Shown: piece by piece, positions 23,236-61,059 of the stretch
How the letters are laid out: the number at the start of each line of letters is the position of its first letter
Position numbering within the stretch: the stretch's first letter is position 1
The notes under the pieces: model-generated
Told to the model about the DNA's origin: nothing
Databases searched by the model: none
The model's input: the letters and a program-made list of their open reading frames with translations, nothing else
Translations under genes and position numbers: made by a program
Assembly: GCA_963457665.1 (NCBI GenBank)
Contig: OY735211.1
Coordinates: 65,877,485-65,941,484, forward strand
Source: Thysanoteuthis rhombus
Taxonomy: Eukaryota; Mollusca; Cephalopoda; Oegopsida; Thysanoteuthidae
Direction: 5' to 3'
DNA length: 64,000 nucleotides

Positions 23236-23450
23236 AGTCTCTTCATTGCACAGGCCACATCCATTAGGGTAACATTGTTTCTTTTCGTCGGTACAGCTTA
23301 GGTGATTGCAACTCGTGGTTTAGACAAGAGACACGCCTGGTAGCAGCCCTGCTAGCCGGATGGTGGGTAGCAATCTTGGTAATACCCTGACTATGTGACT
23401 TGGGGTGACGCTTGTTGCCTCATTTTCCCAATTGTTTTGCACTCGGAGAC
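23236..23450 (-). pseudogene. Histone H4 pseudogene truncated by satellite
   Basis: On the minus strand an ATG at 23,450, in the context CAAGCATTCATCATGTCT that also starts the intact H4-like genes at 39,897 and 44,489, opens a frame whose translation follows histone H4. It has MS, a K/G tail with an in-frame TGA, GNKRHPK (H4 AKRHRK), QGITK, and an R-rich stretch leading to RRVS (KRIS). Much of helix 2 is deleted. After a frame change it resumes as NNVTLMDVACAMKRLSK, matching H4 KTVTAMDVVYALKRQGR. It stops within that motif where satellite array 2 begins, so the C-terminus and stem-loop are missing. Clearly nonfunctional. Confidence 0.85.
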
Positions 23451-25364: not shown

Positions 25365-25640
25365 ATGTCTAAACGTGGAGAAGGAAGCGTAAATGGTGAT
25401 CGTCAGTTTGACAATAATGACAGCAAGCCTGCTACCAACCGTTTGGCTTGTAGATGTGGTGATCAGTGTAAATTTGATCCAGAATACGAGGTGACCCATC
25501 AGGTCGAGATTTACATTATAATGGTTGTCCATGATATCATCTCTCACGCTGTGCTGACCAACAAGGAAACTATCACCATAATTGATGTTGACTATGCACT
25601 CAAGAAAAATGGAAGAGTTTTCTTCGGATTGGGAGGTTAG
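25365..25640 (+). CDS. Divergent histone H4-like protein (91 aa), possible pseudogene
   Basis: The ORF begins MSKRGEG (H4 MSGRGKG) and ends DVDYALKKNGRVFFGLGG (H4 DVVYALKRQGRTLYGFGG). In between, KPATNRLACRCG matches KPAIRRLARRGG, YEVT matches YEET, and KETITIID matches KTVTAMD. From KPA to the end I count roughly 25 identities in 71 residues with a one-residue gap. About a dozen tail residues between MSKRG and KPA are missing compared with the usual 102-residue H4, including the KRHRK region. Four extra cysteines and aspartates replace conserved DNA-contacting arginines. A TATA box and a perfect histone stem-loop flank it, so the layout is that of an intronless replication-dependent histone gene. 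The frame is uninterrupted, unlike neighbouring relics. H4 normally tolerates almost no change, so this is either a decaying copy or a radically altered variant. Confidence 0.7.
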   Translation: MSKRGEGSVNGDRQFDNNDSKPATNRLACRCGDQCKFDPEYEVTHQVEIYIIMVVHDIISHAVLTNKETITIIDVDYALKKNGRVFFGLGG

Positions 25641-25792: not shown

Positions 25793-25879
25793 TTATTTTC
25801 TTTTCATCCCATCAATGCCACCTTTAGATTTTGTCTTGTCGGCCTTCTTAGCACCTTTCAAAATAATTCAAGGGGTCAT
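25793..25879 (-). pseudogene. Histone H2B N-terminal relic
   Basis: From an ATG at 25,879 the minus strand reads M-T-P, a TGA at codon 4, then IILKGAKKADKTKSKGG, and ends at a stop at 25,793. KGAKKADK and the position after MxP match the lysine-rich tail of animal H2B. Nothing of the H2B histone fold is visible beyond it. The upstream DNA (25,890-26,010) is the same promoter module found before the H2B relic at 27,510, and the two relics share the TGA at codon 4. Confidence 0.65.
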
Positions 25880-25889
25880 CGTAGTTTGT

Positions 25890-26010
25890 GTGATAGGAAT
25901 AATGTTGATAATGTAGAAGTCGGCTCTCACGGCAGCTCTGTAGATTTTTGACTTTGGTCTGAAAATAACACAAAAGGCAAGTTTTGAAAAACGATTTTAA
26001 AAAAATTAAC
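25890..26010 (-). promoter_or_regulatory. Histone promoter module relic
   Basis: Contains CGGCTCTCACGGCAGCTCTG, GTCTGAAAATAACAC and AAGGCAAGTTTTGAAAA. The same order of blocks occurs at 27,380-27,480 (inverted) and 28,945-29,020. The CCAAT motif of the other copies is degraded here (GGTCTG in place of GATTGG). It would have driven the H2B relic to its left. Confidence 0.55.
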
Positions 26011-26104: not shown

Positions 26105-26314
26105 AGTTCAACTGCAAGCCTCTTACACGCCGTCATTCTCGCAAAGTTCGTGTCCAGCGTACATCTATTGTCGAATACGAAGGAAATCGACTGTTTAGAA
26201 TTTACCGAGAAAAAGTTATCCGTGATGCCGTCTCCATTGCCGTACGTCAGCTTCGTGGATTTGTTCGATGCACGCAAGAAAAATATCAGAATTCTGTGTG
26301 GCCTGGGCGGTTAA
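26105..26314 (+). pseudogene. 5'-truncated, frameshifted histone H4 pseudogene
   Basis: The plus strand encodes KPLTRRHSRKVRVQR (H4 KPAIRRLARRGGVKR), EYEGNR (IYEETR) and EKVIRDAVSIA (ENVIRDAVTYT). The frame then shifts and continues as VDLFDARKKNIRILCGLGG and a TAA at 26,312, which aligns with H4 MDVVYALKRQGRTLYGFGG. About six residues between the blocks are lost. The whole N-terminal tail is missing; instead the frame runs back into the inverted 3' flank at 26,051-26,104. A 99-aa reading frame beginning at 26,059 is therefore a chimera of antisense 3' UTR and H4. Confidence 0.85.
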
Positions 26315-26330
26315 ATATTGAAATATTGTC

Positions 26331-26376
26331 TCTAAACGGCCCTTTTTATTTTCTCTAAACGGCCCTTTTCAGGGCC
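26331..26376 (+). terminator. Histone 3' stem-loop with partial duplication
   Basis: A perfect GGCCCTTTTCAGGGCC followed by ACCA lies at 26,361-26,376. Just upstream the left half, CTCTAAACGGCCCTTTT, is repeated (26,329-26,346) and runs into TATTT. It belongs to the frameshifted H4 pseudogene, whose stop is 46 bases upstream. Confidence 0.88.
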
Positions 26377-26590
26377 ACCAAATTTCTATGAAGTCTTTTT
26401 CCAATCTTTACAAGATAAGCAGTAAAATGTTTATCTGATATATAGACCTATCCAAACACTCATTTTTCGACGCTTTATTTCATAAACATTTTTTTTTTCA
26501 ATTTTTTCTTTCCAAAATTTTAGCTTGAAAGAAAAATGTCTAAGTTTTTTCGTCTATAGAAAATGAAATCATTATAAATCTTAACTTAGA
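26377..26590 (+). repeat. Histone 3' flank, copy 1
   Basis: Sequence downstream of the stem-loop, from AATTTCTATGAAGTC to AACTTAGAAT, recurs at 30,612-30,836 with scattered differences. The second copy is fused to satellite array 3. Confidence 0.8.
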
Positions 26591-27117: not shown

Positions 27118-27276
27118 TTACTCCGATACACCGGGGTTTTCTTTCTCTAAAATGTAGTAGCTGGGGACGTATTTGCCTTTGCGAAGAAAACGGTTGATTA
27201 CAACAGACAAGGTCGCATGGGATCAGTGAGTCTTACTTTTCCACGTTAATTTCCCTCCCTTATCACGCCATGACAT
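27118..27276 (-). pseudogene. Histone H2A N-terminal pseudogene
   Basis: From an ATG at 27,276 the minus strand reads MSWRDKGGKLTWKSKTH, one in-frame TGA, then VVINRFLRKGKYVPS. This aligns without gaps to H2A MSGRGKGGK...KSKTR and VGRIHRLLRKGNYAER. It runs to a TAA at 27,118, about 53 codons. The acidic-patch region and C-terminal half are absent. It faces away from the H2B relic at 27,510 across a shared promoter, the usual animal H2A-H2B arrangement. An inverted copy lies at 29,621-29,774. Confidence 0.8.
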
Positions 27277-29620: not shown

Positions 29621-29774
29621 ATGTCGTGGCAAGGGAGGAAAAGTAACTGCATAAAGTAAGACTCGTTCACCTCACGTGACCCTGTCCGTTGTAATCAACC
29701 GTCTTCTTTGCAAAGGCAACTATGTCCCCAGCTACTACATTTTAGAGGAAGAAAACCCCGGTGTATCGGAGTAA
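29621..29774 (+). pseudogene. Histone H2A N-terminal pseudogene, inverted copy
   Basis: Inverted homologue of the relic at 27,118-27,276. It starts ATG TCG TGG, has lost bases early and gained stops. It can then be read as INRLLCKGNYVPSYYI followed by a TAA at 29,772-29,774. RLLCKGNY matches H2A RLLRKGNY. The shared post-homology tail (YVPSYYILE, NPGVSE) shows that both copies descend from one H2A gene already broken after the KGNY motif. Confidence 0.75.
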
Positions 29775-30042: not shown

Positions 30043-30109
30043 TCAATAGTGATGAGCAGGTCTTGCCCTTTCAATTTACTTTACCTCCTTGAGCACACCT
30101 TTTCAGCAT
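30043..30109 (-). pseudogene. Histone H2A N-terminal relic (third copy)
   Basis: From an ATG at 30,109 the minus strand reads MLKRCAQGGKVN, a TGA, then KGKTCSS. This fits the H2A tail (GKGGK, KGKTRSSRAG). Similarity ends soon after. It lacks the altered MSW start of the other two relics, so it is a separate decay lineage. The promoter module at 30,110-30,290 lies directly upstream. Confidence 0.6.
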
Positions 30110-30604: not shown

Positions 30605-30836
30605 GATTTTCAGGGCCACCAACTTTCTATGAAGTCTTTTCGAATCTTTACAAGATAAGCAGCAAAATGTTAATCAGATATATAGACCTATCCAAACACT
30701 CATTATCCGACACTTTATTCTATAAGCATTATTTTTTTCCAAGTTTTTTCTTTCCGAAATTTTGGCTTGGAAGAAAAATGTCCGAGTTGTTTCATGTATA
30801 GAAAAAGAAAACACTATAAATCCTAACTTAGAATGT
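30605..30836 (+). repeat. Histone 3' flank, copy 2, with half stem-loop
   Basis: Begins TTTTCAGGGCCACCAAC, i.e. loop and right half of a histone stem-loop, and continues with the flank seen at 26,377-26,590 to AACTTAGAAT. The upstream H4 body and the left half of the stem are missing. It joins satellite array 3 without any spacer at 30,837. Confidence 0.82.
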
Positions 30837-33800
30837 ATGTGCTAGAAATGCCTTCTCGACCAATAGAAACAATTTTCATCGAATTGGACTAAATCAAAAA
30901 ATATATCAAATCCATCAGATCCAATCATACCGTTGCAATCAGCACGTCAAACTACGCCAGAAAAAGCCATATAATCGATAGGTAAAAAAGACATTCAAAA
31001 GGCCATTTTTGACAGCTCACTTATGTATGTGCTAGAAGTGCCTTTTCGACCAACAGCAGCTATTTTCATCAAATTGGGCTGAATCGAAAAATACATCAAA
31101 TTTACCCGATCCAAAGGTACCGTTGCAATCAGCACGTCAAACTACGCCAGAAAACGCCATATAATCGATAGGTAAAAATGACATTCAAAAGACCATTTTT
31201 GACGGCTCACTCATGTATGTGCTAGAAGTGCCTTTTCGACCAACAGCAGCTATTTCAATCTTATTGGGCTAAATCAAAAAATACATCAAATCCACCCAAT
31301 CCAATGGTACCGATGCAATTAGCACGTCAGGCTACGTCAGGAATAGCCATAAAATCGATAGGTAAAAATGACATTCAAAAGACATTTTCTTACAGCTTAC
31401 TTATGTATGTACCAAAAATTCATTTTCTGTAAATTGTGACTATTTCCATCAAATTGGGCTAAATCGAGAAATACATTAAATCGACCTGATCCAATGGTAC
31501 CGTTGCAATCAGAACGTCAAACTACGCCAAAAAAAGTCATAAAATCAAGAGGTAAAAATGACATTCAAAACACTATTTTTGTCTGCTCACTTATGGATGT
31601 GCTGGAAGTGCCTTCTCGACCAATAGTGGCTATTTCCATCAAATTGGGCTAAATTGAAAAATACATCAAATCCACCCGATCCAATGGTACTGTTGCAATC
31701 TGCAGGTCAAATTACGCCAGAAATAGTCATAAATCGATGGGTAAAAATGACATTCAAAAGACCATTTTTGACAGCTTACTTATGTATGCACTTGAAGTGC
31801 CTTTTCGAAGAACAGCGAAAACTTCCATCAAATTGGAATACATCAAAAAATACATCAAATCTGCCTGACCCAATGGTACTGTTGCAATCAGCACGTCAAA
31901 CTACGCCTAGAAAGCCATGAAATTGATAGGTAAGAATGACATTCAAAAGACTATTTTCGACGGCCAGCTTATATATGTGCTAGAAGTGCCATCTCGACCA
32001 ATAGCTACTATTTCAATCAAATTGGACTGAATCGAAAAATACATCAAATCCACTCAATCAAATGGTACCGTTGCAATCAGCACGTCAAACTACGCAAGAA
32101 AAAGCCATAAAATCGATAGGTAAAAATGACATTAAAAACACCATTTTTGATTGCTCACTAATATATTTGTAGAAGTGCCTTCTCGACCAATAGCGGCTAT
32201 TTCCATCAAATTCTTTCGATTAAATGGGGCTAAATCGATAATTACAACAAATGCAGCCAATTCAATGGTACCATTTTTGACGGCTTACTGATGTATGTGC
32301 TAGGAATGCATTTTCATTCGATTGAAATTATTCCCATCAAATTAGGTTAAATCTAAAAATACATCAAATCCACCCCATCCAATGGTACTGTTGCAATCAG
32401 CACGTCAAACTACGCCAGAAAAAGCCATAAAATCGATAGGCAAAAATGACATTCAAAACACCATTTTTGATTGCTCACTAATGTATTTGTAGAAGTGCCT
32501 TCTCGACCAATAGCGGCTATTTCCATCAAATTCTTTCGATTAAATGGGGCTAAATCGATAATTACATCAAATGCAGCCAATTCAATGGTACCATTGCAAT
32601 CAGCACGTCAAACTACGCCAGAAAAAGCCATAAAATCGATAGGTAGAAATGACAATCAAAACACCATTTTTGATTGCTCACTTATGTGTTCACTTGAAGT
32701 GCCTTTTCGAAGAACAGCTGAAACTTCCATCGAATTGGAAAACATCAAAAAATTCATCAAATCTGCCTGACACATTGGTACTGTTGCAAACAGCACGTCA
32801 AACTATGCCATGAAATGTCATAAAATCAGTAGGTAAAAATGACATTCGAAATACCATTTTTGATGGCTTACTTATCTATGTGCTAGAAGTGCCAACAACA
32901 GATATTTCCATCAAATTGGTTTAAATTGAAAAATACATCAAATCCACCCGATCCAATGGTACCGTTGCATTCAGCACGTCAAACTACGCCATTTATAGCT
33001 ATAAAATCAATAGGTAAAAAAGACATTAAAAAGACCATTTTTGACAGCTTACTTATGTATGTGCTAGGAATGCTTTTTTTGTCGATTGAGGCTATTCCCA
33101 TCAAATTGGGCTAAATTGAAATATAAATCAAATCCACCCGATCCAATGGTACCATTCCAATTAGCACGTCAAACTACGCCAGGCAAAGCAATAAAATCGA
33201 TAGGTAAAAATGACATTCAAAAGACCATTTTTGATGGCTTACTTATGTATGGGATACAACTGCCTTCTCGCCAAAAGCGGTTATTTCCATCAAATTGGTT
33301 TTAAAATGAAGAATACATCAAATCCACCTGATCCAATAGTACCATGGCAATCAGCATGTCAAACTACGCCAGAAAAGCCATGAAATTGAGGGGTAAAAAT
33401 GACATTCAAAAGACCATTTTTGACGGCTCACTTAGATACTTACTAAAAATGCATTTTTGGTCAATTATGGCTATTTCAATCAAATTGGGATCAATCAAAA
33501 AATACATCAAATCCATCCAATCGAATAGTACCATTACTATCAGCACATCAAACTACACCAGAAAAAGCCATAAAATCGACCGGTAAGAATAACATTCAAA
33601 AGACCATTTTTGATGGCTCACTTATTTATGTGCTAGAAGTGCCTTTTCGACCAACAGCGGTTATTTCCATTAAATTGGGCTAAATCAAAAAATATATCAA
33701 ATCGACCCGATCCAATGATACTGTTGCTTTTAGCACGTCAAACAACGCAAGAGGATGCCATGAAATCGATAGGTAAAAATGACATTTAAAAGACCATTTT

Positions 33801-35757
33801 TGACGGCTCACTCATGTATGTGCTAGAAGTGCCTTGACGACCGATAGCAGCTATTTCCATCTGGTTGGGTTTAATCAAAAATACATCAAATGCAGCCGAT
33901 TGAATGGTACCGTTGCAATCAGCATGTCAAACTACCCCAGAAAAGGCCATAAAATCGATGGGTAAGAATAACACTCAAAAGATCATTTTTGACAGCTAAC
34001 TTATATATGTGCTAGAAGTGCCTTCTCGACCAAGAGCAGCTATTTCCATAAAATTGGACTAAATCGAAAAATATATCGAATCCACCCGTTCCAATGGTAC
34101 TGTTGCTATCAGCACATCAAACTATGCAAGTGAATGCCATGAAATCGATTGGTAAAAATAACATTCAAAATACCATTTTTGATGGCTCACTTATGTATGT
34201 GCTAGAAGTGCCTTCTCGACCAATAGCAGTTATTCCCATCAAATTGGGCTAAATCGAAAAATACATCAAATGCAGCCGATTCAACCTAACCTTTACAATC
34301 GGCATGTCAAACTACGCCAGAAAAAGCCATAAAATTGGTGGATAAAAATGACATTCAAAAGACCATTTTTGACGGCTCACTTATGTATGTGCTGGAAGTG
34401 CTTTCTCGAGCAATAGCACCTATTTCCATATAATTGGGCTGAATCAAAAAATACATCAAATCCACCCGATCCAATGGTACTGTTGCAATCAGCACGTCAA
34501 ACTACGCCAGAAAAGCCGTAAAATTGATTGATAAAAATGACATTCAAGAGACCATTTTTGAAGTCTTACTTATGTATTTGCTAGAATTGCCTTTTCGACG
34601 AACAGCAGCTATTCCCATCAAATTGGGCTAAATGGAAAAATACATCAAATACACCCGATACAATGGTACTCATGCAATCAGCACGTCGAACTACGCCAGA
34701 AATAGCCATAAAATCGATAGTTTAAAATGACATTCAAAAGACCCCATTTGACGGCATACTTATGTATGTGCTAGAATTGCCTTGTCCACCAACGGCAGCT
34801 ATTTCCATCAAATTGGGTTAATGGAAAAATCAATGAATCTACCCGACCCAATGGTACTGTTGCAATCAGCACGTCAAACTATGCAAGAAAAAGCCATAAA
34901 ATTGTTGGGAAAAATAAAAATCAAAATACCATTTTTGACAGCTTACTTAAATATGTGTTGGAAGTGCCTTTTCGACCAACAGCAGCTATTCCCATCAAAT
35001 TGGGCTAAATCAAAAATACTTCAAATCCACCCAACCCAATTGTACTGTTGCAATCAGCTCGTCAAACTACGCCAGAAAAGGCCATGAAATTGATTGGTAA
35101 AAATGACATTCAAAACACCATTTTTGATGGCTAACTTATGTATATGCTGGAAGTGCCTTCTCGACCAATAGCGACTATTTCCATTAAATTGAGCTAAATC
35201 GAAAAATACATCAAATGCAGCTGATCCAATGATACCATTGCAATCAGCACGTCAACCTACGCCAGAAAAAAGCCATAAAATTGATAGGTAAAAATGACAT
35301 CCAAAAGTCCATTTTCAACAGCTTATTCATGTATGTGCTAGAAATGCATTTTCGGTCAATAGTGGCTATTTACATCAAAATGGACTAAATTGAAAGATAC
35401 ATCAAATCCACCCGATTCAATGGTATCGTTGCAATCAGCACGTCAAACTACGCCTGAAAAAGCCATGAAATTGATCGGTAAAAATGACATTCAAAAGACC
35501 ATTTTTGACGGCTTACTTATGTATGTGTCAGAAGTTCCTTTTCGACCAACAGCAGCTATTTCCATCAAATTGGGCTGAATTGTAAAATACATCAAATTCA
35601 CCCGATCCAATTGTACCGTTGCGATCAGCATGTCAAACTACGCTAGAAAAAGCCATAAAATTGATAGGTAAAAATGACATTAAAAAGACCATTTTTGACG
35701 GCTCACTTATGTATAAGCTAGGAGTGCCTTCTCGACCAATAGCAGCTATTTCCATCA
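30837..35757 (-). repeat. Satellite array 3, older diverged copy of the 190-bp family
   Basis: About 26 monomers in the orientation of array 2 but with much higher divergence between units, small indels and truncated units (for example near 32,250 and 32,880). One segment is duplicated (32,150-32,270 and 32,460-32,590, sharing TTGTAGAAGTGCC and CTTTCGATTAAATGGGG). No long higher-order repeat is evident. This fits an inactive array no longer homogenised. Confidence 0.93.
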
Positions 35758-37300
35758 AATATCTGTTTGAAAAAAGTTGATATCCAAATGCTTTCCGGAG
35801 AGGCAAGTTTTCTTTTGCCTTCGAAGAGAGCACAATGACCCCAAACGCCTTAAATCGGTCGAATAGACCAACTAAACAGTCAAGTATCTAGATTATTATC
35901 TATGATCCCCCAACAAGCGATAATTCTCAACAGTTCGTTTACCGTTTTTCCGTGTATTCTTTGAGTATTTGTTTCAAATTTTGTCCACACGAAGATCTAC
36001 ACTACACCTTCTGTCATTTTGGTTTTCAATCACACAGCAATTATGTTGTTAATCAAAAAGATAGTTATTTCATTAAACTACTCTTTAAAAGTACCTCAAT
36101 AATTATCTACTAGGATCCTCGAACAAACAATACTTCGGCCACACACCCGGAGAAGAGTCACTCTGTGTAAAAATAAAAATGATAATTGTATATAAACAAT
36201 TGCAATAATGCAACAAAAATGAGAACTTATTGACTATCATTATATGCAACTAAGAGAAACAATTACTAAACCTCAAATACATTTTGCCGAAAAGAAAGTT
36301 GATAGCTAAATGCTTTTCAGAAAGGCAAGATTTCCCCAAGTTTGGCTACAATATGCAACCAAATTAGCAACCATGTCTTTACCCTCACGAAACACAGAGA
36401 CCTTACAGAACACAATGACCTCAGCAATCTTAGTCAGTTGAATAGATAAGGGAATGTCATGCTCATGACGCTGTGTAATGTCTATTTGAATAATCAGTGG
36501 CCTCTTCTTCTTAACTTCATACCTCTACTCAACCTGATAGCATCTTGCTTACTTATTTTGACCATTGTTGGGACCCATACAAACAATTTATCTTTTAGAT
36601 ATATTTCAATCATTAGGAGTTTTTAAGATGTACATAAATATCAACTTTGCTTTTAACCCTCTTCCCTCGCATGAACTGGTAATTATAGGGTTAGACTTTA
36701 GAAGAGAACACTATGACCCCAACCCCAAGTCGGTCGAGTGGATAAGAGATTGTCACTACCCGACGCTGTGTCATGTCTATTTGAATATCAGGGGGATGAA
36801 ATTCACTTCCAGGTGCCGTGACACGACATTTGAAATATCAAGTCACGCTTCCTCTTCCCTTCATAGCATCACATCACCTGATCAATGATAACTGGGTAAA
36901 AATATAATATATATATTTTAATTAGGCTATTGGGAAAATATCACTACCATATGACAACTGGTGTTCTTGAGGGCACAAGTTCATCTTTCCCGGATCATCA
37001 ATTATCCTTTTGATTTGTTTTGATTTAGCTACGCTTTAAAAGACTCTTTCACGGAAAATTTTTCCTCTCATCACAACGATATTAGACCTGATGTCGCTAA
37101 GGGCACTCAAGTTCATCTTGCCTGGCTCACCAAGTATCCTTGGGCCTACCTATGGCGCCAGTTTCTTCTTCTCTTCTTAAATTTGTATTTACTCTCATGT
37201 ATGTCAGTGGTGGCACTAGGTCCGACTTGGCCCCCGCCTATAATTCGTCCAATTTTCACCCCTCATAAGAATGAATGTTTTAACGGTTATTTTTTGGCTT
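35758..37300 (+). repeat. Dispersed element R1, copy 1
   Basis: Starts ATCTGTTTG at the end of satellite array 3 and ends at TATTTTTTGGCTT. It shares long stretches in order with 50,217-51,445, for example GAGAGCACAATGACCCCAAA, CTACTCTTTAAAAGTACCTC, CTTCATAGCATC and AATTCGTCCAATTTTCA. No conserved long ORF is shared (a 107-aa frame at 36,565-36,888 is not preserved in copy 2). Probably a non-autonomous mobile element; class unknown. Confidence 0.8.
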
Positions 37301-38213
37301 CCATCTTGTGCATAGTTTTGACAAAAGATTGAAGAAAAAAAAATTGAAAATTGAAAACGCAGGAAAATAGTAAGCAAAATGTAATGATGTGCATTTTATT
37401 TTCTTGATCATTTGTAGCCTTCATTTTAGAATTATTTTTTCTTTTCTTTATAAAATTTTGGGCTAAAAAAAACATGATTAATTGGATGAAATTTATTTGA
37501 TCTGGTTAATCATCACTATCTCTTACCTTAATTTATATTTTTTGTAAATCCATCTCAACAATGACAACACAATTATGATTAACATTCTTTCTTTTAAATA
37601 AAATTTAATGCCAAAAAAAAAGAAAAAAAAACAACGAATTAATGCGAGAGTAACGGATAATATTTTCAAGTTTTAGTATGATGTAGGGAAGATCATCTGA
37701 ATTGTAAAGTACCAGACATTTGCTTAATTAATGTTTAAAAATTTTACCGTGTAAGATACTTTTTAAAAAATGGATGTATTTATCTACTTACTTAAAAGTC
37801 AGGGAGAATGTAAGCATGATAAATTTAATAAATGACAACAGGTGACATTTCTTATTTACATACAGAAATATAATTTTATTCACTTCAATTTTAAATTGTA
37901 AACAATAAAAAAAAAGTAAATGTAATTTTTGTTTTGAAAGATTCAAATAATGCCAAATGAATGTATCCATTGACTTATTTAGGAGTTTATCAGTTTCAAA
38001 TTGATAAACCAAGTAATATTAGATCCAAGATGGAATTGGTATTTTGAAAGATACAATTGACCCGTGATAACTTATCTAAAAATGTACGTAGCAAAATATG
38101 GGATTTGAAAAATTTGCTTTCATTCTAATTTCAAAATGAGAGACTGTAATAACAGAGTAACATTGTATAACATATTTTGGAATAGAGTGAGAAAATGTTC
38201 GTGGAACGTGGCT

Positions 38214-38229
38214 TGCCCTGAAAGGGGCC
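38214..38229 (-). terminator. Orphan histone stem-loop relic (left arm)
   Basis: On the minus strand this reads GGCCCCTTTCAGGGC, a degraded histone stem-loop in the context ATAACGG...GCCACGTTCC, comparable with the intact one at 39,528-39,543. No H4 frame lies upstream of it. It is about 1.3 kb from the intact stem-loop, the spacing of the tandem duplication in the arm. Confidence 0.7.
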
Positions 38230-39527
38230 GTTATGAAAAAAATATTTTAAAATTTGACCTCTGAAATCTTACATTTCGTGCAAAAGTCCTAGAGCAATGT
38301 ATACGATGGTTAAAGTTTTATCACAGTTTTGACTCGGGAGAAAAAACAAAACAATTAAACACTAAATTTTCAACTTCATCTTATTCTTTAATTTTTTAAA
38401 TCACACTCAAATACTTTGATTGACAAATATTCATTTGGTTAATTACTGCCACTTGTGTTTTTCTTAAGGAATTCATCTATACTTAGCTAGATAACAACTC
38501 CACAATGATGATTTACGTCCGTTTCTGATGTAAAATAATGTCAGAGAAATCAATTAATAACAGTGTTACGAATCATATTTTTCAGTTTTAGTTCAATGCA
38601 GCTTGGCCATCTGAATTGTAAAGTAACACATATCAGCCAAATGTATTCTATCTTTTTAATTAATACTCGCCTTTTCCTCACGCTTCATCATGAATTTTTT
38701 TTCACACTTTTGACACGGTAGAAATTTAGAAAAAAACAATTGAAGATGCAGGTAAATATTATGGAAAATGTAATGATATTAATTCAATTTCCCTAATAAG
38801 TGCTAGTATCTACCTTCATCATACTTTTCAATTTTTTAATCACATTTAGGACTTTTGATTAATTTTTCTCGACAATGAATTTTGCTAAAAAAACAACGAT
38901 ATGGTAATGATTTATGCCCTCTTCGATATAATGTGATGTCAGAGAAATCAATTAATACCAGAGTAATAATCATATTTCCAAGTTTTAGCCCTAAGTAGCG
39001 AAAGCCATCTGAATTGTAAAGTAACACATATTTACCAAATCGTTGTTTCAAAATTTCACAGTCAAATACTTTTTAATAGATCAATGTATTCGTCTACTGA
39101 CTTACTGATCATCGGGTATGTAAGATTGTCGAATTTCATCATTAGCAACAGGAGATATCTTCAACTTACATAGACAAAAAATGATTTTCTTCACTTGAAT
39201 AATAAATTGTAAATAATCAAAAAATGCATGCGTACTTTTGCCTCGGAAATATTCGAATATTGCCAAATAATGTATCCATTTACTTATTGTGTAGTTTATC
39301 AGTTTAATATTAGTGAAGAAAAATATTATTATATCGAAGAAGGAAATTATATTAAAAAAAAAAAACACTTCTGACCTGTAATGGTTTCATTAAAAAGTGT
39401 ACATAGCAAAATATACGATTTAAACGTTTTTTTTTTTTTAGATTTCAAAATTATAGAGCGACTTCTTTGAGTAAGAGTGTACTATACATGTTGTAACTAT
39501 GAGAAAAAGTTTTCGGAGAAAGTGGGT

Positions 39528-39543
39528 GGCCCTGAAAAGGGCC
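39528..39543 (-). terminator. Histone mRNA 3' stem-loop of H4-like gene, left copy
   Basis: The minus strand reads GGCCCTTTTCAGGGCC followed by ACCCAC, an exact match to the metazoan replication-dependent histone stem-loop. It lies 48 bases after the TGA of the H4-like ORF, within the usual range. Confidence 0.95.
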
Positions 39544-39591
39544 GTTATGAGTAAATATGTTTTATATTTACTCGCTGATACTTTACAGAGA

Positions 39592-39897
39592 TCAGCGTTG
39601 TGTCTTGATGGCATGGATTATGTCCAACGCACACACGGGATCTTTGACGATGTTTTTGCCATCACGAATAATTAAAGACTTGTAAGCATACATTGCATTT
39701 GCAGCATTACGGGCTAGAATTTTAGAGCAACGTTCACGTCGTTCCTCATCAGATTTAAGCGCTGAAAGTGATTTGAGATCACCTTCTCCCTTGATCAGTG
39801 AGGGGTTGGAACCCTGAACATAATCTCTGAGTATCTCTCGATGACTCTTGCCACGTTCATTTTGAAACTGCTCTCCTGTTCCTTCGTCTCCAGACAT
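39592..39897 (-). CDS. Divergent acidic-tailed histone H4-like protein (left copy)
   Basis: An intact 101-codon ORF. MSG opens the protein as in H4. KSHREILRDYVQG at residues 17-29 aligns without gaps with H4 KRHRKVLRDNIQG, and VCALDIIHAIKTQ near the end aligns with VTAMDVVYALKRQ. The tail MSGDEGTGEQFQNERGK is acidic or neutral where H4 has its acetylated lysines: positions equivalent to K5, K8 and K12 and to K20 are replaced, and only the K16 equivalent remains. The centre (ILARNAANAMYAY) fits helix 2 loosely, and the terminal RTLYGFGG is absent. TATA box, CCAAT, E2F-like motif and stem-loop are all in place. It is identical at protein level to the copy at 44,489. It may be a novel H4 variant or an open relic kept identical by gene conversion. 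Confidence 0.75.
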   Translation of the reverse strand: MSGDEGTGEQFQNERGKSHREILRDYVQGSNPSLIKGEGDLKSLSALKSDEERRERCSKILARNAANAMYAYKSLIIRDGKNIVKDPVCALDIIHAIKTQR

Positions 39898-40140
39898 GAT
39901 GAATGCTTGGTAGTGAAAATCTTGTGAGCTGGCTGACTGATAGCTTTCCTTTTTATACCGGTCCCATATTAGTTTAACAGGCAGCAGTCAGCGCAGAACG
40001 TAGGCTCCTAGTTCAGGTGTGTGCTTAGTTGAATTTTCATTGGTTACAAATTACACACATTTTTGTTTTTGAAAATTTGAGCGCGAAAATATCAGCAGTT
40101 TGAGCGCAAAATATCAATAGTTTGCAAGCCGCATGTCTCT
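39898..40140 (-). promoter_or_regulatory. Promoter of H4-like gene, left copy
   Basis: Mirror of 44,250-44,488. TATAAAAAGG (minus) lies at 39,948-39,957, about 50 bases before the ATG, with GGGACCGG adjacent. An ATTGG (CCAAT) and a GAGCGCGAAAA block (E2F-like TTTCGCGC) follow farther upstream, with GTAGGCTCC between as in the H2A-H2B modules. Confidence 0.75.
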
Positions 40141-40302
40141 GATTCCAACGTATCAGTAAGCACATTCCATTACACGCCAATAACAATGAAAGTGGAGATA
40201 AGTGAGAATTAAAGAAGCTTCCTTTTAGTCGATTATTTATTACAACTTTTTGAATTCATTTAAACTTTTTACTTGTTTCATTGCAGCGTTGACCTGGGAT
40301 AG

Positions 40303-41640
40303 AGAACGACTAAAGAAAAAGACAGAAATATACAGTAATAAAAATGTGATGTGATGTTTTTTACCATTTAGCAGTGATTTTTCTTACCATTTCTTTTATT
40401 TTTTGACCCCATCCAAATTCTAATTTCGGTTAAGAAAACAACGTAAAAACACGATAGAATAAAATAGTAGTCGTGATTTAATGATATTCACTCCATCTTT
40501 TCTTAACAAAAATTATTTTTCAAAAACGTTATCTCAATCTTTTTGTTTTCAATCTGAGTTTGAGAGAGAGATGGAAGTAAATAGTAGTGAAAATGTAATG
40601 TGATCTCTACCACTAGTGATGTGTGCTATTATTTTCACAACTTTTTACCATAAATTCAATATTGAATGTGTCTCATCGAAAATTTGATTTAGTCTAAAAA
40701 TAAAACAAAATAAACATTAAAAAAGGACTATGGGAATACATAGTGACGAAATGTAATGTGATTTTTACGAATATTTTTACAAGTTTTTACCTTTGATTCG
40801 GTATAATATGGGTCTTAATAGTGATTTGAATTTGTCTGAAAATAAGACAAAAAAATTACAATGGAAATAAATAGTTGTTTAACTTCTATGCTGTTAACAT
40901 GTTTTTGTTGAAAATTTCTCTTCTTCAAACTTCTATCCTGAATTTTTAGGTTTAATCAGAATTTTAGAAAAAGATGGACATAAATGATAGTTAAATCATA
41001 ATGTTATTTCTACCATTAGTGATTTCTCTTACTATTTTTACTACTTCTTACCTTAGAGTCTATATTACGTCTAATCACAAATTTTATTTACTTTGAGAAA
41101 GCAACATAAAATTACGATGAATTTGAAAAGTAATTGTAATTTATTGATATCCACATTTTTTTCTGAAAAAAAAAATTAATCTCAAACTTTTAGTTTTTTA
41201 TCAAAATTTACAAAAAGGACAGACATAAATAGAAGTGAAAATGTAATTTGATTCAGACTGAGAAAACAATATAAATTTAAATACTAGTTGCAATTAAATG
41301 ATATTCAAATTAGTTTTCCTTTCAAAAATCTTGAAAAAGTAATTAATCTCAAACATTAAGTTTTCTATCATAATTAAAAAAAAAAAGATAGACATAGAAA
41401 GTAGCAAAAATGTAATGAAATTTATACCACTAGTGACTATTTTTACTATTTTATACCTCGTATTCGATATTGAAAGCGTCGTATTATTAATTTGATTTGG
41501 TCTAAGTATTAAACAACCAAATTTCGTTGGAATTAAATAGTTGCTAAAATTGTATGATATTCACATTTTTTTCTTAGTTTTCAATCCCAGATTAAATTTG
41601 TAAAGTAATTAAATACTAGTAAATAAAGGGATAAATTTAA
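40303..41640. repeat. Diverged AT-rich tandem repeat in the spacer
   Basis: Loosely repeated units of roughly 160-250 bp, each with a GACATAAATAG-TAGTGAAAATGTAATGTGAT block, a TTTTTACCATTAGTGATTT block and a TTAATCTCAAAC block. Unit starts fall near 40,320, 40,572, 40,735, 40,975, 41,220 and 41,390. Its left end overlaps the end of the inverted-repeat arm. Confidence 0.6.
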
Positions 41641-43984
41641 TGAGATGTATTTTATTTTATTGATCGTTACTATGATTTACGTTCAACTTTTTACTTGATT
41701 CATTTCAAATGGACTCAGGCTTCAAAACAACTTCACAATTACGATGTGTGTCATCTTTGTTATAATTTAGAAGAATTTCATAATTTTTTCATAAAAGTTT
41801 ATCAAACTGAATCTTCACCAAAATATCTTCGCTTATTCTGCAAAATCGAAATTTAGAGGCATGCACACCCCCAAAATATCATATGGGACGCCCCCCTGAT
41901 GCAACATATAATCTATAGTAATATTTGTTTGTCCATGCCTCTTCCACGCTAAATTTATTTTGCCTATTGACCTAATATTTGACATAGAATCAAAATTAAT
42001 CAATTTCCCATATCAGCTAAGTTTGGAAATCATTTGAAGTCACCAGAAGTCATTCTATAGCCAACCTTCGGGTCAGAACAAATCTAAAATATTTCTCATT
42101 GCAAATGGAAAAAAAAGATGTCTCACAATAAGATGAATTCTTATGAAGTTTCAGGCATTTTTCTTTTTAAAGAGACACGATCACATTTACGCATCAACCA
42201 GTTATCTTTTAGGTTGTAGCAGTCACAACGCTCGTGCACATACATATCTTTTTAAGACTATTCCCAACAAACATCTATCATTGCATTTTTTATTGAGTTT
42301 GATTGAAAAAGTATTGATTCACAATTAAAAGTGTGTACATATTTTGTCCCTGGAAAAGAATATATTGACTACTAAAAAAGGAAATACAACAAGGAATGAT
42401 AGCTCTTTCACTAATCCTAAAATGTACAATCAAAAGTTTACACTTCATTTTATAAGAGCCTTCCCTTGTGCTGTAATGAAGATTCAGAAAAACAAGGGAG
42501 AAAACTTAGAATATATAAAAAAAATTTCAACTCTTTCTTTACCACGTAGTATTTTTTTGCAACAGAACAATTAAAAAAAATATCTTCCAATTGAAAACAA
42601 ATCATCCCCCGAATCTGGTCAACTCTTCCAAAGCCCATCCATAAAGTTTCATTAAAATTCATTGAAATCATTTAGATATAGTGAGTGGACATACGGACAA
42701 GCCAAAATACATATACCTCTTCTAACTTTGTTGGAATGATATATACAAAATGAAAAACTTAACGAATCAGCTGAATACCTGTCATAATGGGCAATATGAA
42801 ATTATTGTAAAAAAAATGTAATCCTGTAAATAAGCAACACAAAATCGCAATCAATATTTGAACAACATAAATTTTATTTGATATATCTTATCATCAAGAA
42901 GTTTGATATATTTACTTTTTGTTTACAGTTTTAGAAATAATCAACCTTCTCGATTGTAAAGTTCTCCACCATATTCTCTGCCATTACGTATTTCATTTCA
43001 CGATTGCATATCAGTGGCAGCAATAGAAGGAACAAGAGGCACAAGACTGGATTCAAATAGAACTCCTTTATTTTAATAATTTAGTTGAGCGAAAATACAT
43101 CGCGTAGTCTTCGCTTGAAGACAAACGAAACAAAATCCTCACTCACATCTATGCAAGTTACAATCGTTTATGGACAAAAATCATCGGTCAGAAGAAATAT
43201 TTGGAGCTACTGTTAACTTTTCAACTGATTTTTTCTGTCAAAATTAAGATACCATATGAAATTCCATATATGATTAATACAAACATAGTTGGAACATTCG
43301 AAATTAATGTTATCCTTTATACTGATGTTTTTTGTCAAAATTAAGATACTATATGAAAGTACGTATTTAACTAATACAAATACATGTATTGTGTCCAACA
43401 CTTTTAAATTCATTCCAACCATTTAAAGACTGAACACTTGTACATCTGAAGAGTTTTGGACGAATTTGCCTTCTCAGAAGTGTCAGTCGAAAAGCTTTCA
43501 AGATTTGTTTCAACAACTAAAACTTCAAACTTTAACTTTTTACTGATTTTGCTATGCACTTGCTAAGTAGTATACTATTTAGATTCTGTACAATTAAAAG
43601 ATTTTTCAAAATTTGTCCTCATTTTTGTTAGTGAAATTGATCAGGAACAATTAATCCATTGCGATCTTTCTTCGTACTATTCAGGCAAAGAAGGCAATGA
43701 AATGAACGTGGTAAATATTTGGAAGTTTTCTTCCTTGCTAGCTTAAATTAGCTATTTTTTTTTCTCGGTCTTTCTTTTCCTGCTGTGTGAAAATTGTCAC
43801 TTTTTAGCGAGAACCACAATTCGGGAGCCTTATTGGATATGATTTGAAATAAATTTGAAATAAATGTCCAAAGAATCTACCTTACTTCCCACATCAAATA
43901 TTCCTCTCGAGATGAATTCCTTTGACCAAAAGTATCAGTTGAAAGGATAATAGTAGTTCAAATGTAAATTGGGATGAGGTAAAA
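41641..43984. other. Central spacer of inverted repeat, no recognised gene
   Basis: AT-rich single-copy-looking sequence around the axis. Short frames (42,143-42,574 plus; 43,213-43,422 minus) show no recognisable domain. GGGACGCCCCCC near 41,882 is unusually GC-rich for the region. A direct repeat TTTCTGTCAAAATTAAGATA / TTTTGTCAAAATTAAGATAC occurs at 43,231 and 43,329. Confidence 0.5.
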
Positions 43985-44249
43985 AAAAAATAGAAATGGT
44001 AAGAAAAATCACTGCTAAATGGTAAAAAACATCACATCACATTTTTATTACTGTATATTTCTGTCTTTTTCTTTAGTCGTTCTCTATCCCAGGTCAACGC
44101 TGCAATGAAACAAGTAAAAAGTTTAAATGAATTCAAAAAGTTGTAATAAATAATCGACTAAAAGGAAGCTTCTTTAATTCTCACTTATCTCCACTTTCAT
44201 TGTTATTGGCGTGTAATGGAATGTGCTTACTGATACGTTGGAATCAGAG

Positions 44250-44488
44250 ACATGCGGCTTGCAAACTATTGATATTTTGCGCTCAAACTGCTGATATTTT
44301 CGCGCTCAAATTTTCAAAAACAAAAATGTGTGTAATTTGTAACCAATGAAAATTCAACTAAGCACACACCTGAACTAGGAGCCTACGTTCTGCGCTGACT
44401 GCTGCCTGTTAAACTAATATGGGACCGGTATAAAAAGGAAAGCTATCAGTCAGCCAGCTCACAAGATTTTCACTACCAAGCATTCATC
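44250..44488 (+). promoter_or_regulatory. Promoter of H4-like gene, right copy
   Basis: TATAAAAAGG at 44,429-44,438 (about 50 bases before the ATG), GGGACCGG adjacent to it, CCAAT at 44,343-44,347 and TTTCGCGC at 44,298-44,305, an E2F-like site fitting S-phase histone transcription. A second GCGCTCAAA block lies at 44,279. TAGGAGCCTACG is shared with the H2A-H2B promoter modules at 27-30 kb. Confidence 0.78.
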
Positions 44489-44794
44489 ATGTCTGGAGAC
44501 GAAGGAACAGGAGAGCAGTTTCAAAATGAACGTGGCAAGAGTCATCGAGAGATACTCAGAGATTATGTTCAGGGTTCCAACCCCTCACTGATCAAGGGAG
44601 AAGGTGATCTCAAATCACTTTCAGCGCTTAAATCAGATGAGGAACGACGTGAACGTTGCTCTAAAATTCTAGCCCGTAATGCTGCAAATGCAATGTATGC
44701 TTACAAGTCTTTAATTATTCGTGATGGCAAAAACATCGTCAAAGATCCCGTGTGTGCGTTGGACATAATCCATGCCATCAAGACACAACGCTGA
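44489..44794 (+). CDS. Divergent acidic-tailed histone H4-like protein (right copy)
   Basis: Second copy of the 101-codon gene, with protein identical to the minus-strand copy at 39,592-39,897. The start is fixed by alignment to H4 (MSG at residues 1-3, HR at 19-20, LRD at 23-25, QG at 28-29) and by the TATA box. The DEE-RRERC segment aligns with H4 YEETRGV at the start of helix 2, and LDIIHAIK with the start of helix 3. H4 is basic throughout; this protein has many D/E residues in the tail and loop 1, so DNA contact would be altered. The gene is intronless and ends in a histone stem-loop, so it should behave as a replication-dependent histone gene if transcribed. Confidence 0.75.
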   Translation: MSGDEGTGEQFQNERGKSHREILRDYVQGSNPSLIKGEGDLKSLSALKSDEERRERCSKILARNAANAMYAYKSLIIRDGKNIVKDPVCALDIIHAIKTQR

Positions 44795-44842
44795 TCTCTG
44801 TAAAGTATCAGCGAGTAAATATAAAACATATTTACTCATAAC

Positions 44843-44858
44843 GGCCCTTTTCAGGGCC
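44843..44858 (+). terminator. Histone mRNA 3' stem-loop of H4-like gene, right copy
   Basis: GGCCCTTTTCAGGGCC followed by ACCCAC: six-base-pair stem, TTTC loop, 48 bases after the stop codon. Identical to the left copy. Confidence 0.95.
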
Positions 44859-46159
44859 ACCCACTTTCTCCGAAAACTTTTTCACATAGTTACAACATGT
44901 ATAGTACACTCTTACTCAAAGAAGTCGCTCTATAATTTTGAAATCTGAGAAAAACAAAACGTTTAAATCGTATATTTTGCTATGTACACTTTTTAATGAA
45001 ACCATTACAGGTCAGAAGTGTTTTTTTTTTTAAATATAATTTCCTTCTTCGATATAATAATATTTTTCTTCACAAATGTTAAACTGATAAACTACACAAT
45101 AAGTAAATGGATACATTATTTGGCAATATTCGAATATTTCCGAGGCAAAAGTACGCATGCATTTTTTGATTATTTACAATTTATTATTCAAGTGAAGAAA
45201 ATCAGTTTTTTGTCTATGTAAGTGAAAGATATCACCTGTTGCTAATGATTAAATTCTACAATCTTACATACCCGATGATCAGTAAGTCAGTAGACGAATA
45301 CATTGATCTGTTAAAAAGTATTTGACTGTGAAATTTTGAAACAACGATTTGGTAAATATGTGTTACTTTACAATTCAGATGGCTTTCACTACTTAGGGCT
45401 AAAACTTGGAAATATGATTATTACTCTGGTATTAATTGATTTCTCTGACATCAGATTATATTTGAAAGGGCATAAATCATAACCATAGCTTTGTTTTTTT
45501 CAGCAAAATTCAATGTCGAGATAAATGAATCAAAAGTCCTAAATGTGATTAAAAAATTAAAAAGTAAGTTGAAGGTAGATACTAGCACTTATTAGGGAAA
45601 TTGAATTAATATCATTACATTTTCTGTAATATTTACCTGCATCTTCAATTGTTTTTTTCTAAATTTCTACCGTGTCAAAAGTGTGAAAAGAAATTTCAAG
45701 ATGAAGCGTGAGGAAAAGACGAGTACTAATTATAAAGATAAAATACATTTCACTGATATGTGTTACTTTACAATTCAGATGGCCAAGCTGCATTGAACTA
45801 AAACTGAAAAATATGATTCATTACACTGGTATTAATTGATTTCTCTGACATTATTTTACATTAGAAACGGACGTAAATCATCATTGTGGAGTTGTTATCT
45901 AGCTAAGTATAGATGAATTCCTAAAGAAAAACACAAGTGGCAGTAATGAACCAAATGAATATTTGTCAATCAAAGTATTTGAGTGTGATTTAAAAAATTA
46001 AAGAATAAGATGAAGTTGAAAATTTAGTGTTTAATTGTTTTGTTTTTTCTCCTGAGTCAAAACAGTGATAAAACTTTAACCATCGTATACATTGCTCTAG
46101 GACTTTTGCACGAAATGTAAGATTTCAGAGGTCAAATTTTAAAATATTTTTTTCATAAC

Positions 46160-46175
46160 GGCCCCTTTCAGGGCC
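46160..46175 (+). terminator. Orphan histone stem-loop relic (right arm)
   Basis: GGCCCCTTTCAGGGCC, flanked by ATAACG upstream and AGCCACGTTCC downstream, mirrors the relic at 38,214-38,229. It lies 1.3 kb downstream of the intact stem-loop with no H4 frame before it. Confidence 0.7.
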
Positions 46176-46959
46176 AGCCACGTTCCACGATCATTTTCTC
46201 ACTCTATTCCAAAATATGTTATACAATGTTACTCTGTTATTACAGTCTCTCATTTTGAAATTAGAATGAAAGGAAATTTTTCAAATCCCATATTTTGCTA
46301 CGTACATTTTTAGATAAGTTATTACAGGTCAATTGTATCTTTCAAAATATTAATTCCATCTTGGATCTAATATTACTTTGTTTATCAATTTGAAACTGAT
46401 AAACTCCTCAATAAGTAAATGGATACATTCATTTGGCATTATTTGAATCTTTCAAAACAAAAATTACATTTACTTTTTTTTATTGTTTACAATTTAAAAT
46501 TGAAGTGAATAAAATTATATTTCTGTATGTAAATAAGAAATGTCACCTGTTGTCATTTATTAAATTTATCATGCTTACATTCTCCCTGACTTTTAACTAA
46601 GTAGATAAATACATCTATTTATTAAAAAAGTATCTTACACAGTGAAATTTTTAAACATTAATTAAGCAAATGTCTGGTACTTTACAATTCAGATGATCTT
46701 CCCTACATCGTACTAAAACTTGAAAATATTATCCGTTACTCTCGTATTAATTCGTTGTTTTTTAGGGGGGGGGCGTTAAATTATATTTGAAAAAAGAAAG
46801 CTAATCATAATTGTGTTGTCATTGTTGAGATGGATTTACAAAAAATATAAATTAAGGTAAGCGGGAGTGATTATTAACCAGATCAGATAAATTTCATCCA
46901 ATTTATCATGTTTTTTTTTAGCCCAAAATGTTATAAAGAAAAGAAAAAAATAATTCTAA

Positions 46960-48420
46960 AATGAAGGCTACAAATGATCAAGTAAATAAAACGTACATCA
47001 TTACATTTTGCTTACTATTTTCCTGCATCTTCAATTTTTAATTTTTTTTTCTTCAATCTTTTGTCAAAACTGCAATAAAACCATAAGTTTGAAGCTTGAG
47101 GTGAAAAGGAATATTATATAATACAATCAAATTAATTTTATTGAATTTTACCTCTTTTTCACCTGCACCTTGATTTTTTCATGATTTTTTCATCCAGAAT
47201 CAGAATTGTGATAAAAAAAAGCCTTCAAAACTGAGATAAGGTTGAGAAGTACTAATACATAAATGAATCAAATAATCTCATTAAACTTTGTTAACTATTG
47301 TTTTTATTTAGCCCAAGTCCAGAATGTGATAAAAAATCATAGAATATGATGAAGGTAGAATGTAACAACGATTAAGAAATGAAACGTAACTTATTGCATT
47401 CCATGTTTAGCTGCATCTTCAGCTCTTAGTTGTTTTTTTATCCTGTGTCAAAACCTCGAAGTTGGTGTTGAAAGTAAAATGGATTTCTAATTATAAAATA
47501 AAATACAATTTGTTTTTTTTGCCTACTATTTACCGACATTGTAATTGTTCTATTTCATTTTTTTTTTCATCGTCGGTAGGAATTGTGATTAAGAAAAAGG
47601 GGTTATGTTCAGGGTTCCATAATTCCCTTTATTAAGCATCTTGATTTTCTGGTTCCTTTTATTTATTTTTTTTTTTCATCCCAAGAATAATTTGTGATTC
47701 AAACTAATAAATAGGATGAATGTAAAAATTAGTAACAATTGACAAAAAAAAGTGAATATCATTATATTTTAAGTATTATTTAATTCTACCATAATTTCAA
47801 AGTTAGAGTTATAAGACCACAAAACATTCAAAGGAAGTTAATGATTAATACTCAAAAATCTCATTACAAGTTCACTATGTTTTATTTCCATCCTTCTCTC
47901 CAGTTGTTTTTGAACCGAGTCAAAATAAGAACAACAAATTTTGAGTAAAAATGAAGGTAAAATTTAGTAATAATTAATAGATTATGATGAATCTGATTCA
48001 CTTTTTACTTCTTTTCATGATTAATGCATGTTCTGATAAGTGATATATCAAAAACCATTTTAGCAAATTCTGTCGGCAATTTACATGCATTTTATTTTTC
48101 AAATTTCCTTTTCAAACCTTTTGAAAAAAAAACTTCATATCAATTTCAATCTAAAATATCATATTATTTGATAAAATATATGAATTTTATTAAATGTTGT
48201 TTACTTATTACCTGCATGTTGATTTCTCTATTGGTTTTTTTTTTCATCCCAATTGTTAATTTTGATAAAAACTTCAAAAATTCAGATGAATGTGAAATTA
48301 TCAAGAATTGAACTTTGTCCTAGCTTTTTCATCCCAAATTAATATAGATATATAAAACCTGAAAATTTCAATAAATTGAAAAGTTAACAATAATTGATAT
48401 ATCATAGTAATCCCCAATTA
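46960..48420. repeat. Diverged ~140-bp AT-rich tandem repeat, block 1
   Basis: Loosely repeated units with the order AAGATGAAGGTAAAA, ATTAATGAAATAAAAT, CTCATTACATTTT, ACTATTTACCTGCATCTTGA, TTTTTTTCATCC, TCAAAATTGTGATAAAA. The same unit continues into the inverted-repeat arm on the left and recurs at 56,600-58,600. Confidence 0.65.
47595..47640 (+). pseudogene. Possible fragment of the divergent H4-like gene
   Basis: GGTTATGTTCAGGGTTCC here matches GATTATGTTCAGGGTTCC of the H4-like genes (44,560-44,580), followed by a looser match through TTTATTAAG against CTGATCAAG. This covers residues DYVQGSNPSLIK. The run of 17 identical bases is unlikely by chance, but the fragment is only about 40 bases and lies inside an AT-rich repeat. 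Confidence 0.4.
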
Positions 48421-61021: not shown

Positions 61022-61059
61022 CGTTCATAAAAGTCGAATGCAGTATAGTACAATAGAAT

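Follow-up and report, generated by a model that had tools for sequence, protein, structure and literature searches.

A multi-copy family of divergent, H4-derived histone-type genes near chromosome ends of the cephalopod Thysanoteuthis rhombus

Histone H4 is the textbook example of an unchangeable protein and ranks among the least changeable proteins of animals. H4 variants described so far include human H4G, trypanosome H4V, ascomycete H4E and a bracovirus H4 (PMC10878826). Human H4G is devoid of the C-terminal tail and 85% identical to H4 over the remainder, and ascomycete H4E combines a tail poor in modifiable lysines with longer tails and introns (PMC10878826). Oikopleura dioica has H4t, a testis H4 with three residue differences that is encoded by one gene (PMC3156773), and short variants of H2A, found mainly in the testis of placental mammals, have been reported to destabilise nucleosomes (PMC7817690, PMC7226823). 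Here we analyse a stretch of 64,000 nucleotides (the window) from the genome of T. rhombus (assembly GCA_963457665.1, contig OY735211.1, here C14, positions 65877485-65941484), in which two genes on opposite arms of an inverted repeat encode one and the same H4-like protein, designated P0001. Judged by its sequence, P0001 represents a real, selected, multi-copy family of H4 variants with gene parts of the replication type, whose function we infer below. C14 measures 66.38 Mb in an assembly of 2.73 Gb and 514 contigs. Among the titles listed by our literature searches, which left subscription papers mostly uncovered, none dealt with divergent families of H4 in molluscs, cephalopods included, and none of five histone terms is present in a paper on cephalopod epigenetics (PMC9476566).

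Descent of P0001 from histone H4 and the structure of its genes

A phmmer search of PDB with P0001 returned 62 sequences at E <= 1, the best of them (E 7e-4) being histone H4, and the best 60 of the 62 are all named H4. The signal becomes stronger with a profile built from 13 members of the family, for which the best E value in PDB is 2.5e-9 and the best 60 of 91 rows are all H4; alignment of this profile to H4 with hhalign gave 96.8% and E 2.2e-10, with 30% identity across 94 columns. P0001 itself is 27-30% identical to canonical H4. On the strength of these comparisons, the P0001 family is descended from H4. The initial annotation had read both window genes as intact 101-codon H4-like frames extending from MSG to the helix-3 motif; both frames are indeed open, and the PDB matches agree with that reading.

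Lysines of the H4 tail are acetylated, residues of the loops L1 and L2 contact DNA, and the C-terminus docks with H2A. Residues R3, K5, K8, K12 and K20 of H4 are replaced in P0001 by D, G, E, N and E, respectively, R17 is replaced as well, and the position of R45 is occupied by P or S in the family alignments. The loss of the four lysines and the acidic character of the tail, both pointed out in the initial annotation, are thus real: the first 16 residues include one basic and four acidic ones in P0001, compared to four and none in H4. The protein as a whole is basic (isoelectric point, pI, of 9.0 vs 11.4 in H4). It is neither near-invariant nor equipped with the acetylatable tail lysines by which canonical H4 is recognised. 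Retained features comprise the MSG start, K16, H18, R19, the pattern KxHR..LRD..QG and the helix-3 motif ALDIIHAIKTQ, the most H4-like stretches being that from the tail base to helix 1 and helix 3 itself. The RRLAR of helix 1 is present in L035 (IRRLARKGG), and this part is shortened in the window copies (IKGEGD). Additional residues stand ahead of the helix-3 motif (PVCALDIIHAIKTQR vs TVTAMDVVYALKRQG), and the protein stops at KTQR, with GRTLYGFGG missing.

The two genes lie head to head, with their promoters toward the centre and a spacer of about 3.5 kb between them (table 1). The TATA box, the CCAAT box, the E2F-like element TTTCGCGC and the histone stem-loop that the initial annotation had listed are all present at both genes, and both stem-loops exceed the Rfam gathering cut-off (RF00032, 37.6 bits, E 2.1e-7). 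An uninterrupted frame with a histone stem-loop shortly past the stop codon is the structure characteristic of replication-dependent histone genes. The same annotation called the two genes identical, which holds for the proteins; the coding sequences differ by a single synonymous substitution (44635 / 39751).

Copies across the genome and selection on the coding sequence

Where the initial annotation had spoken of two genes, 57 rows for P0001 were found in the genome: 42 full-length copies (39 open and three with stops) and 15 partial or broken ones. As many as 37 of the full-length copies are located within 1.2 Mb of the ends of chromosome-sized contigs, two are on short contigs (C463 and C64), and three are internal in C26 and C39; seven head-to-head pairs like that of the window are separated by 3.7-4.9 kb (all these counts were made by hand). 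The copies have in common a module of about 3.3 kb, often in pieces, extending from about -528 to about +2800 relative to the start codon and present in copies of all subfamilies and on other chromosomes. The near-identity of copies on different chromosomes points to recent exchange. A 190-bp satellite occurs in about 122 copies, in two orientations, at positions 1-23201 of the window and in about 25 further copies at 30833-35760; it recurs near the contig ends of C7, C22, C24, C29 and C37, and also in C21 (40 of 1857 candidates scored). Since, in addition, C1 starts with TTAGGG-type repeats, the setting of the P0001 genes is subtelomeric DNA. At least 28 rows, chiefly on C27 and C19, are canonical H4 with no difference from the query. 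In agreement with the cephalopod source, 149 of 150 listed S-crystallin-like rows (150 of 1152 candidates scored) are situated on a single contig, such arrays being associated with coleoids.

The analysis of selection is based on 29 of the 30 distinct coding sequences obtained from the genome, L047 being omitted for its frameshifted end; L023b, L040, L041 and L048-L054 were left out as partial or frameshifted. The sequences fall into subfamilies A (the window type, 101 amino acids), B (104 amino acids, L035-L038) and C (101 amino acids, L039 and L042-L044), beside which stand the stop-bearing L045 and L046. Among 13 aligned members, length differences amount to whole codons. Substitutions were counted by parsimony on a FastTree tree, and the p-values treat changes as independent, in a family whose copies exchange sequence. 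Leaving aside the terminal branches of four stop-bearing copies (L034, L038, L045, L046), the tree carries 61 synonymous, 59 non-synonymous and no stop changes. The neutral expectation is 24-29% synonymous at a transition bias of 1-4 (p 1.6e-10 to 5.2e-7) and 24-25% under the mutation spectrum of the flank itself (p 4e-10 to 7e-10; copies without 5' flank and L036 excluded), and the ratio of non-synonymous to synonymous rates (omega, or dN/dS) is 0.30-0.40. On the four excluded branches, 12 synonymous, 36 non-synonymous and four stop changes were counted, which fits neutrality (p 0.87-1.0) and differs from the remainder (Fisher p 0.003; L023 is absent from this comparison and from the flank-spectrum test).

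In 20 open copies, synonymous sites changed at 0.65 per site and the distal 5' flank at 0.61, compared to 0.23 for non-synonymous sites; the values for the proximal 200 bases and for the first 123 bases from the stop codon are 0.39 and 0.38. The synonymous rate being close to that of the flank and the non-synonymous rate being lower, the amino acids are moderately constrained, i.e. the P0001 coding sequence is under moderate purifying selection. The dN/dS near 1 that the initial annotation had named as evidence against a functional variant is thus not what the 29 sequences display. Stops, frameshifts or an omega near 1, by which pseudogenes are recognised, do not characterise the family and are confined to a minority of copies, namely the three full-length rows with stops and the 15 partial or broken rows.

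Gene parts outside the frame recur as well. Of the full-length copies (42 in total), the TATA box is present in 36 and the CCAAT box in 35; an exact match to TTTCGCGC lies within 300 bases in 32, and the stem-loop agrees fully with the consensus in 39. Across the 20 open copies, TATAAA is invariant, with two changes in the last two of the eight sites of the box, the five sites of the CCAAT box have not changed at all, and the eight sites of TTTCGCGC have changed twice.

What the P0001 genes may do

We consider it fairly probable that P0001 comes from a functioning family of histone-type genes that is derived from H4, intronless and present in many copies. Its transcript would then end at the stem-loop and be made in S phase, probably in dividing germ cells, a setting that other variant histones suggest by analogy. 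The protein may use the remnant of its histone fold to pair with H3 and, instead of building ordinary nucleosomes, might make loose or partial ones or hold back H3. Loose or partial nucleosomes would be expected because the C-terminal strand that docks with H2A is gone and the DNA-contact residues of L1 and L2 are changed; the loss of most acetylatable tail lysines and the extra residues before helix 3 would be further alterations of such a histone. Exchange, both subtelomeric and palindromic, may keep the copies alike and numerous. From the suggestion in the initial annotation that the window encodes a new replication-dependent H4 variant, we thus retain a selected H4-variant family, with 'replication-dependent' denoting the structure of its genes.

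Several observations weigh against this reading. The 42 full-length copies are accompanied by the 15 partial or broken rows; six full-length copies (L013, L014, L020, L025, L033 and L034), five of them open, are missing both the TATA and the CCAAT box; and the stem-loops of L029, L035 and L045 depart from the consensus by up to two mismatches. No clear excess of conservation is seen in the stem-loop core, with four changes in its 16 sites vs 47 in the 123 sites around it. Constraint on the protein is uneven: the two root branches, separating subfamily A from the rest, carry three synonymous and nine non-synonymous changes, omega is near 1 for pairs involving L046 and for a few close pairs within subfamily C, and, when the window copy is compared with L035, L039 or L042, codon positions 1 and 2 differ by about 10% vs 12-13% in the 5' flank. 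An AlphaFold prediction of P0001 made without an alignment is a poor model (predicted local distance difference test, pLDDT, 47.6; predicted template modelling score, pTM, 0.39), and Pfam names no histone in P0001 or any of the 13 family members. The silence of Pfam weighs little, as canonical H4 itself scores just E 1.1e-4 on the Histone model and misses the cut-off.

It is conceivable that the genes are dead copies of H4 with an accidentally open frame, whose likeness is maintained by gene conversion between repeats of the subtelomeres. The whole module is indeed a subtelomeric repeat that includes the stop-bearing and broken copies enumerated above, and the arms of the inverted repeat are identical through non-coding DNA, with no difference across 44000-44488 (489 bases of 5' flank) and 1 to 14 differing sites per 100-base bin from 45200 to 46900 on the 3' side. 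Such a gradient of identity crossing non-coding DNA is a signature of gene conversion, so the identity of the arms alone carries no argument for selection, and we dropped it as evidence, the non-coding 5' flank being just as identical as the genes. However, conversion introduces no synonymous bias and does not lower omega, and the stop-bearing copies behave neutrally where the others do not; the conversion of a neutral frame, offered as an alternative by the initial annotation, thus describes a process that occurs but leaves the substitution pattern unexplained. Nor does neutrality account for 39 open frames among the 42: when a canonical H4 gene from the T. rhombus genome was left to drift in 800 simulated runs (flank mutation spectrum, substitutions without indels), the frame was still open at 45, 40, 35 and 30% identity in 5.3, 3.4, 3.4 and 2.0% of cases. 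We regard dead copies as an improbable explanation.

Among the readings that grant the genes a function, the chief rival is a product that is under selection but no longer a chromatin histone, for example a regulator or decoy binding H3 or a histone chaperone outside chromatin. The moderate constraint, the altered residues of L1 and L2 and the disappearance of both the C-terminal docking strand and most lysines of the tail would all suit such a protein, whereas the retention of MSG...KxHR..LRD..QG and ALDIIHAIKTQ, together with a promoter and stem-loop of the histone type, fits it less well; we take it to be unlikely, though a more serious contender than dead copies. Carriage of the gene by a selfish subtelomeric element, or its origin as a virus-borne histone, has a precedent in the bracovirus H4 (PMC10878826) and would agree with a module common to many chromosomes, yet the copies retain a histone promoter and 3' end, and no gene of an element was noticed among 31 ATG-started open reading frames of at least 80 amino acids, which were inspected without a library search (broken elements would escape). 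A viral origin was rejected after viral_contigs, the sole viral collection scanned, yielded no relative in a search with the profile of the family. A selfish or viral carrier thus appears very improbable.

Further H4-like genes and the relation to known variants

P0001 is not the only divergent H4 derivative in the window. The initial annotation had set the intact P0001 frames against relics of the neighbourhood that normally show stops; stops or frameshifts do occur in two H4-like relics (table 1), but the open frame of the P0001 genes is not unique, as a second H4-like gene, P0002, is open too. P0002 is likewise derived from H4 (best E 4e-10 in PDB) and slightly acidic (pI 5.8). At 82% identity or more, all 41 full-length genome rows of the P0002 type are open (a hand count); they are located near the ends of C14, C15, C29, C30 and C13 and at 12.5-13.2 Mb of C45, and three incomplete places, one bearing a stop, were encountered as well. 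Nine of the 41 rows, including L064, in which the normal stop is lost, yielded 23 synonymous and 37 non-synonymous changes (omega 0.50, p 0.008). The model of P0002 that AlphaFold predicted without an alignment is poor, and no histone match was returned by Pfam for P0002 or for L055, a representative on C45 of a third set; L055 itself resembles an H4 that bears an arginine-rich new tail and a GLGG end.

Table 1. Features of the P0001 genes and of other H4-like sequences in the window.
Feature	Position	Strand	Remarks
P0001 coding sequence, right arm	44489..44794	+	101 amino acids plus stop; open reading frame list, 57 genome rows
P0001 coding sequence, left arm	39592..39897	-	101 codons; encodes identical protein
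Inverted repeat, right arm	43967..47071	+	contains most of the shared module
Inverted repeat, left arm	37314..40419	-	repeat comparison
Histone 3' stem-loop, right gene	44843..44858 (Rfam match 44838-44882)	+	48 bases past stop codon
Histone 3' stem-loop, left gene	39528..39543 (Rfam match 39504-39548)	-	Rfam RF00032
TATA box TATAAAAA, right gene	44429..44436	+	-60
CCAAT box, right gene	44343..44347	+	-146
E2F-like TTTCGCGC, right gene	44298..44305	+	-191
TATA box, left gene	39950..39957	-	motif reading
CCAAT box, left gene	40039..40043	-	motif reading
E2F-like site, left gene	40081..40088	-	motif reading
P0002, second open H4-like gene	25365..25640	+	91 amino acids, TATA box, GLGG C-terminus kept
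Histone stem-loop of P0002	25659..25704	+	Rfam
Frameshifted relic, third H4-like type (like L055)	26105..26312	+	sequence comparison
Histone stem-loop of the third-type relic	26356..26400	+	Rfam
H4 relic with stops and frameshift	23238..23437	-	sequence comparison

The third set, retrieved with H4 and L055 as queries, is found on C45 and C13, with some members on C14, C29, C30 and C463. Among the 150 rows scored out of 323 candidates, 102 are non-canonical (counted by hand), including 17 that contain stops and some that are partial; in eight small slices examined from the H4-like rows, seven were non-canonical and one was canonical. Large arrays at C45:12.5-13.2 Mb and C13:67.0-67.4 Mb (L055-L059) contain various types of divergent H4-like genes, with genes of the P0002 type interspersed among them. 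Queries with canonical H3, H2A and H2B gave no rows in these two regions or beside the subtelomeric copies, with 150 of 187 candidates scored for each of H3 and H2A and all 113 for H2B, a search that very divergent partners would escape; the diversification therefore apparently concerns H4 only, at the sensitivity used. On balance, we lean toward the view that T. rhombus has a second H4 repertoire of at least three strongly divergent families (P0001, P0002 and the L055-related types of C45 and C13). Its open copies would number well over 100 and be found chiefly at the ends of chromosomes and in a single array of about 0.65 Mb, and H4 would be diversifying rapidly here, a process that may reflect conflict or a specialisation of germline chromatin.

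Traces of other histones and duplications were also observed. The window contains short H2A-like relics at 29623-29740 (+), 27169-27276 (-) and 30050-30091 (-), the first two of which share changes relative to canonical H2A, suggesting descent from an already divergent H2A; H2B-like N-terminal relics, recognised by eye and also as a repeat pair, lie at 25820-25990 (-) and about 27511 (+). Six H2B-like rows with 63-64% identity, five of them without stops, are found at C16:1520400-1568408, possibly a variant cluster. A decayed histone stem-loop is located at 46160-46175 (+), 1.3 kb past that of the right P0001 gene, and an old tandem duplication relates 44822-45437 to 46140-46752 (73%); the sequence immediately upstream of the second duplicate yielded no H4-like frame. 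A perfect tandem duplication of 407-408 bases at 60208-61022 is either very recent or an assembly artefact.

A selected H4 family at about 30% identity, deprived of most of the customary tail lysines and of the end that docks with H2A, would allow a direct test of which parts of H4 are dispensable, and would raise the questions of its role in the presence of normal H4 and of the reason for its amplification at the chromosome ends of a single animal line. If the second repertoire is real, a protein thought to be almost frozen in animals would here be diversifying rapidly. The P0001 genes resemble those of canonical replication-dependent H4 in being intronless and in the MSG start, KxHR..LRD..QG, the helix-3 motif and the 3' stem-loop, but the protein differs by its 27-30% identity, the replacement of K5, K8, K12, K20, R3, R17 and R45, the extra residues before helix 3 and the C-terminus at KTQR. 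As they are described in PMC10878826, H4G, H4V, H4E and bracovirus H4 do not combine such divergence with such a copy number. The C-terminal tail is missing in both human H4G and P0001, the latter being set apart by its identity of about 30%; ascomycete H4E shares with P0001 the lysine-poor tail and the retention of canonical H4 beside it, whereas the longer tails and introns belong to H4E and not to P0001 (PMC10878826). The short H2A variants derive from a different histone, H2A, and their working likeness to P0001 may serve as a lead only (PMC7817690, PMC7226823). Oikopleura H4t, as described in PMC3156773, is, like P0001, an animal H4 variant existing alongside canonical H4, but divergence in the P0001 family extends over most of the protein, and the family numbers dozens of copies.

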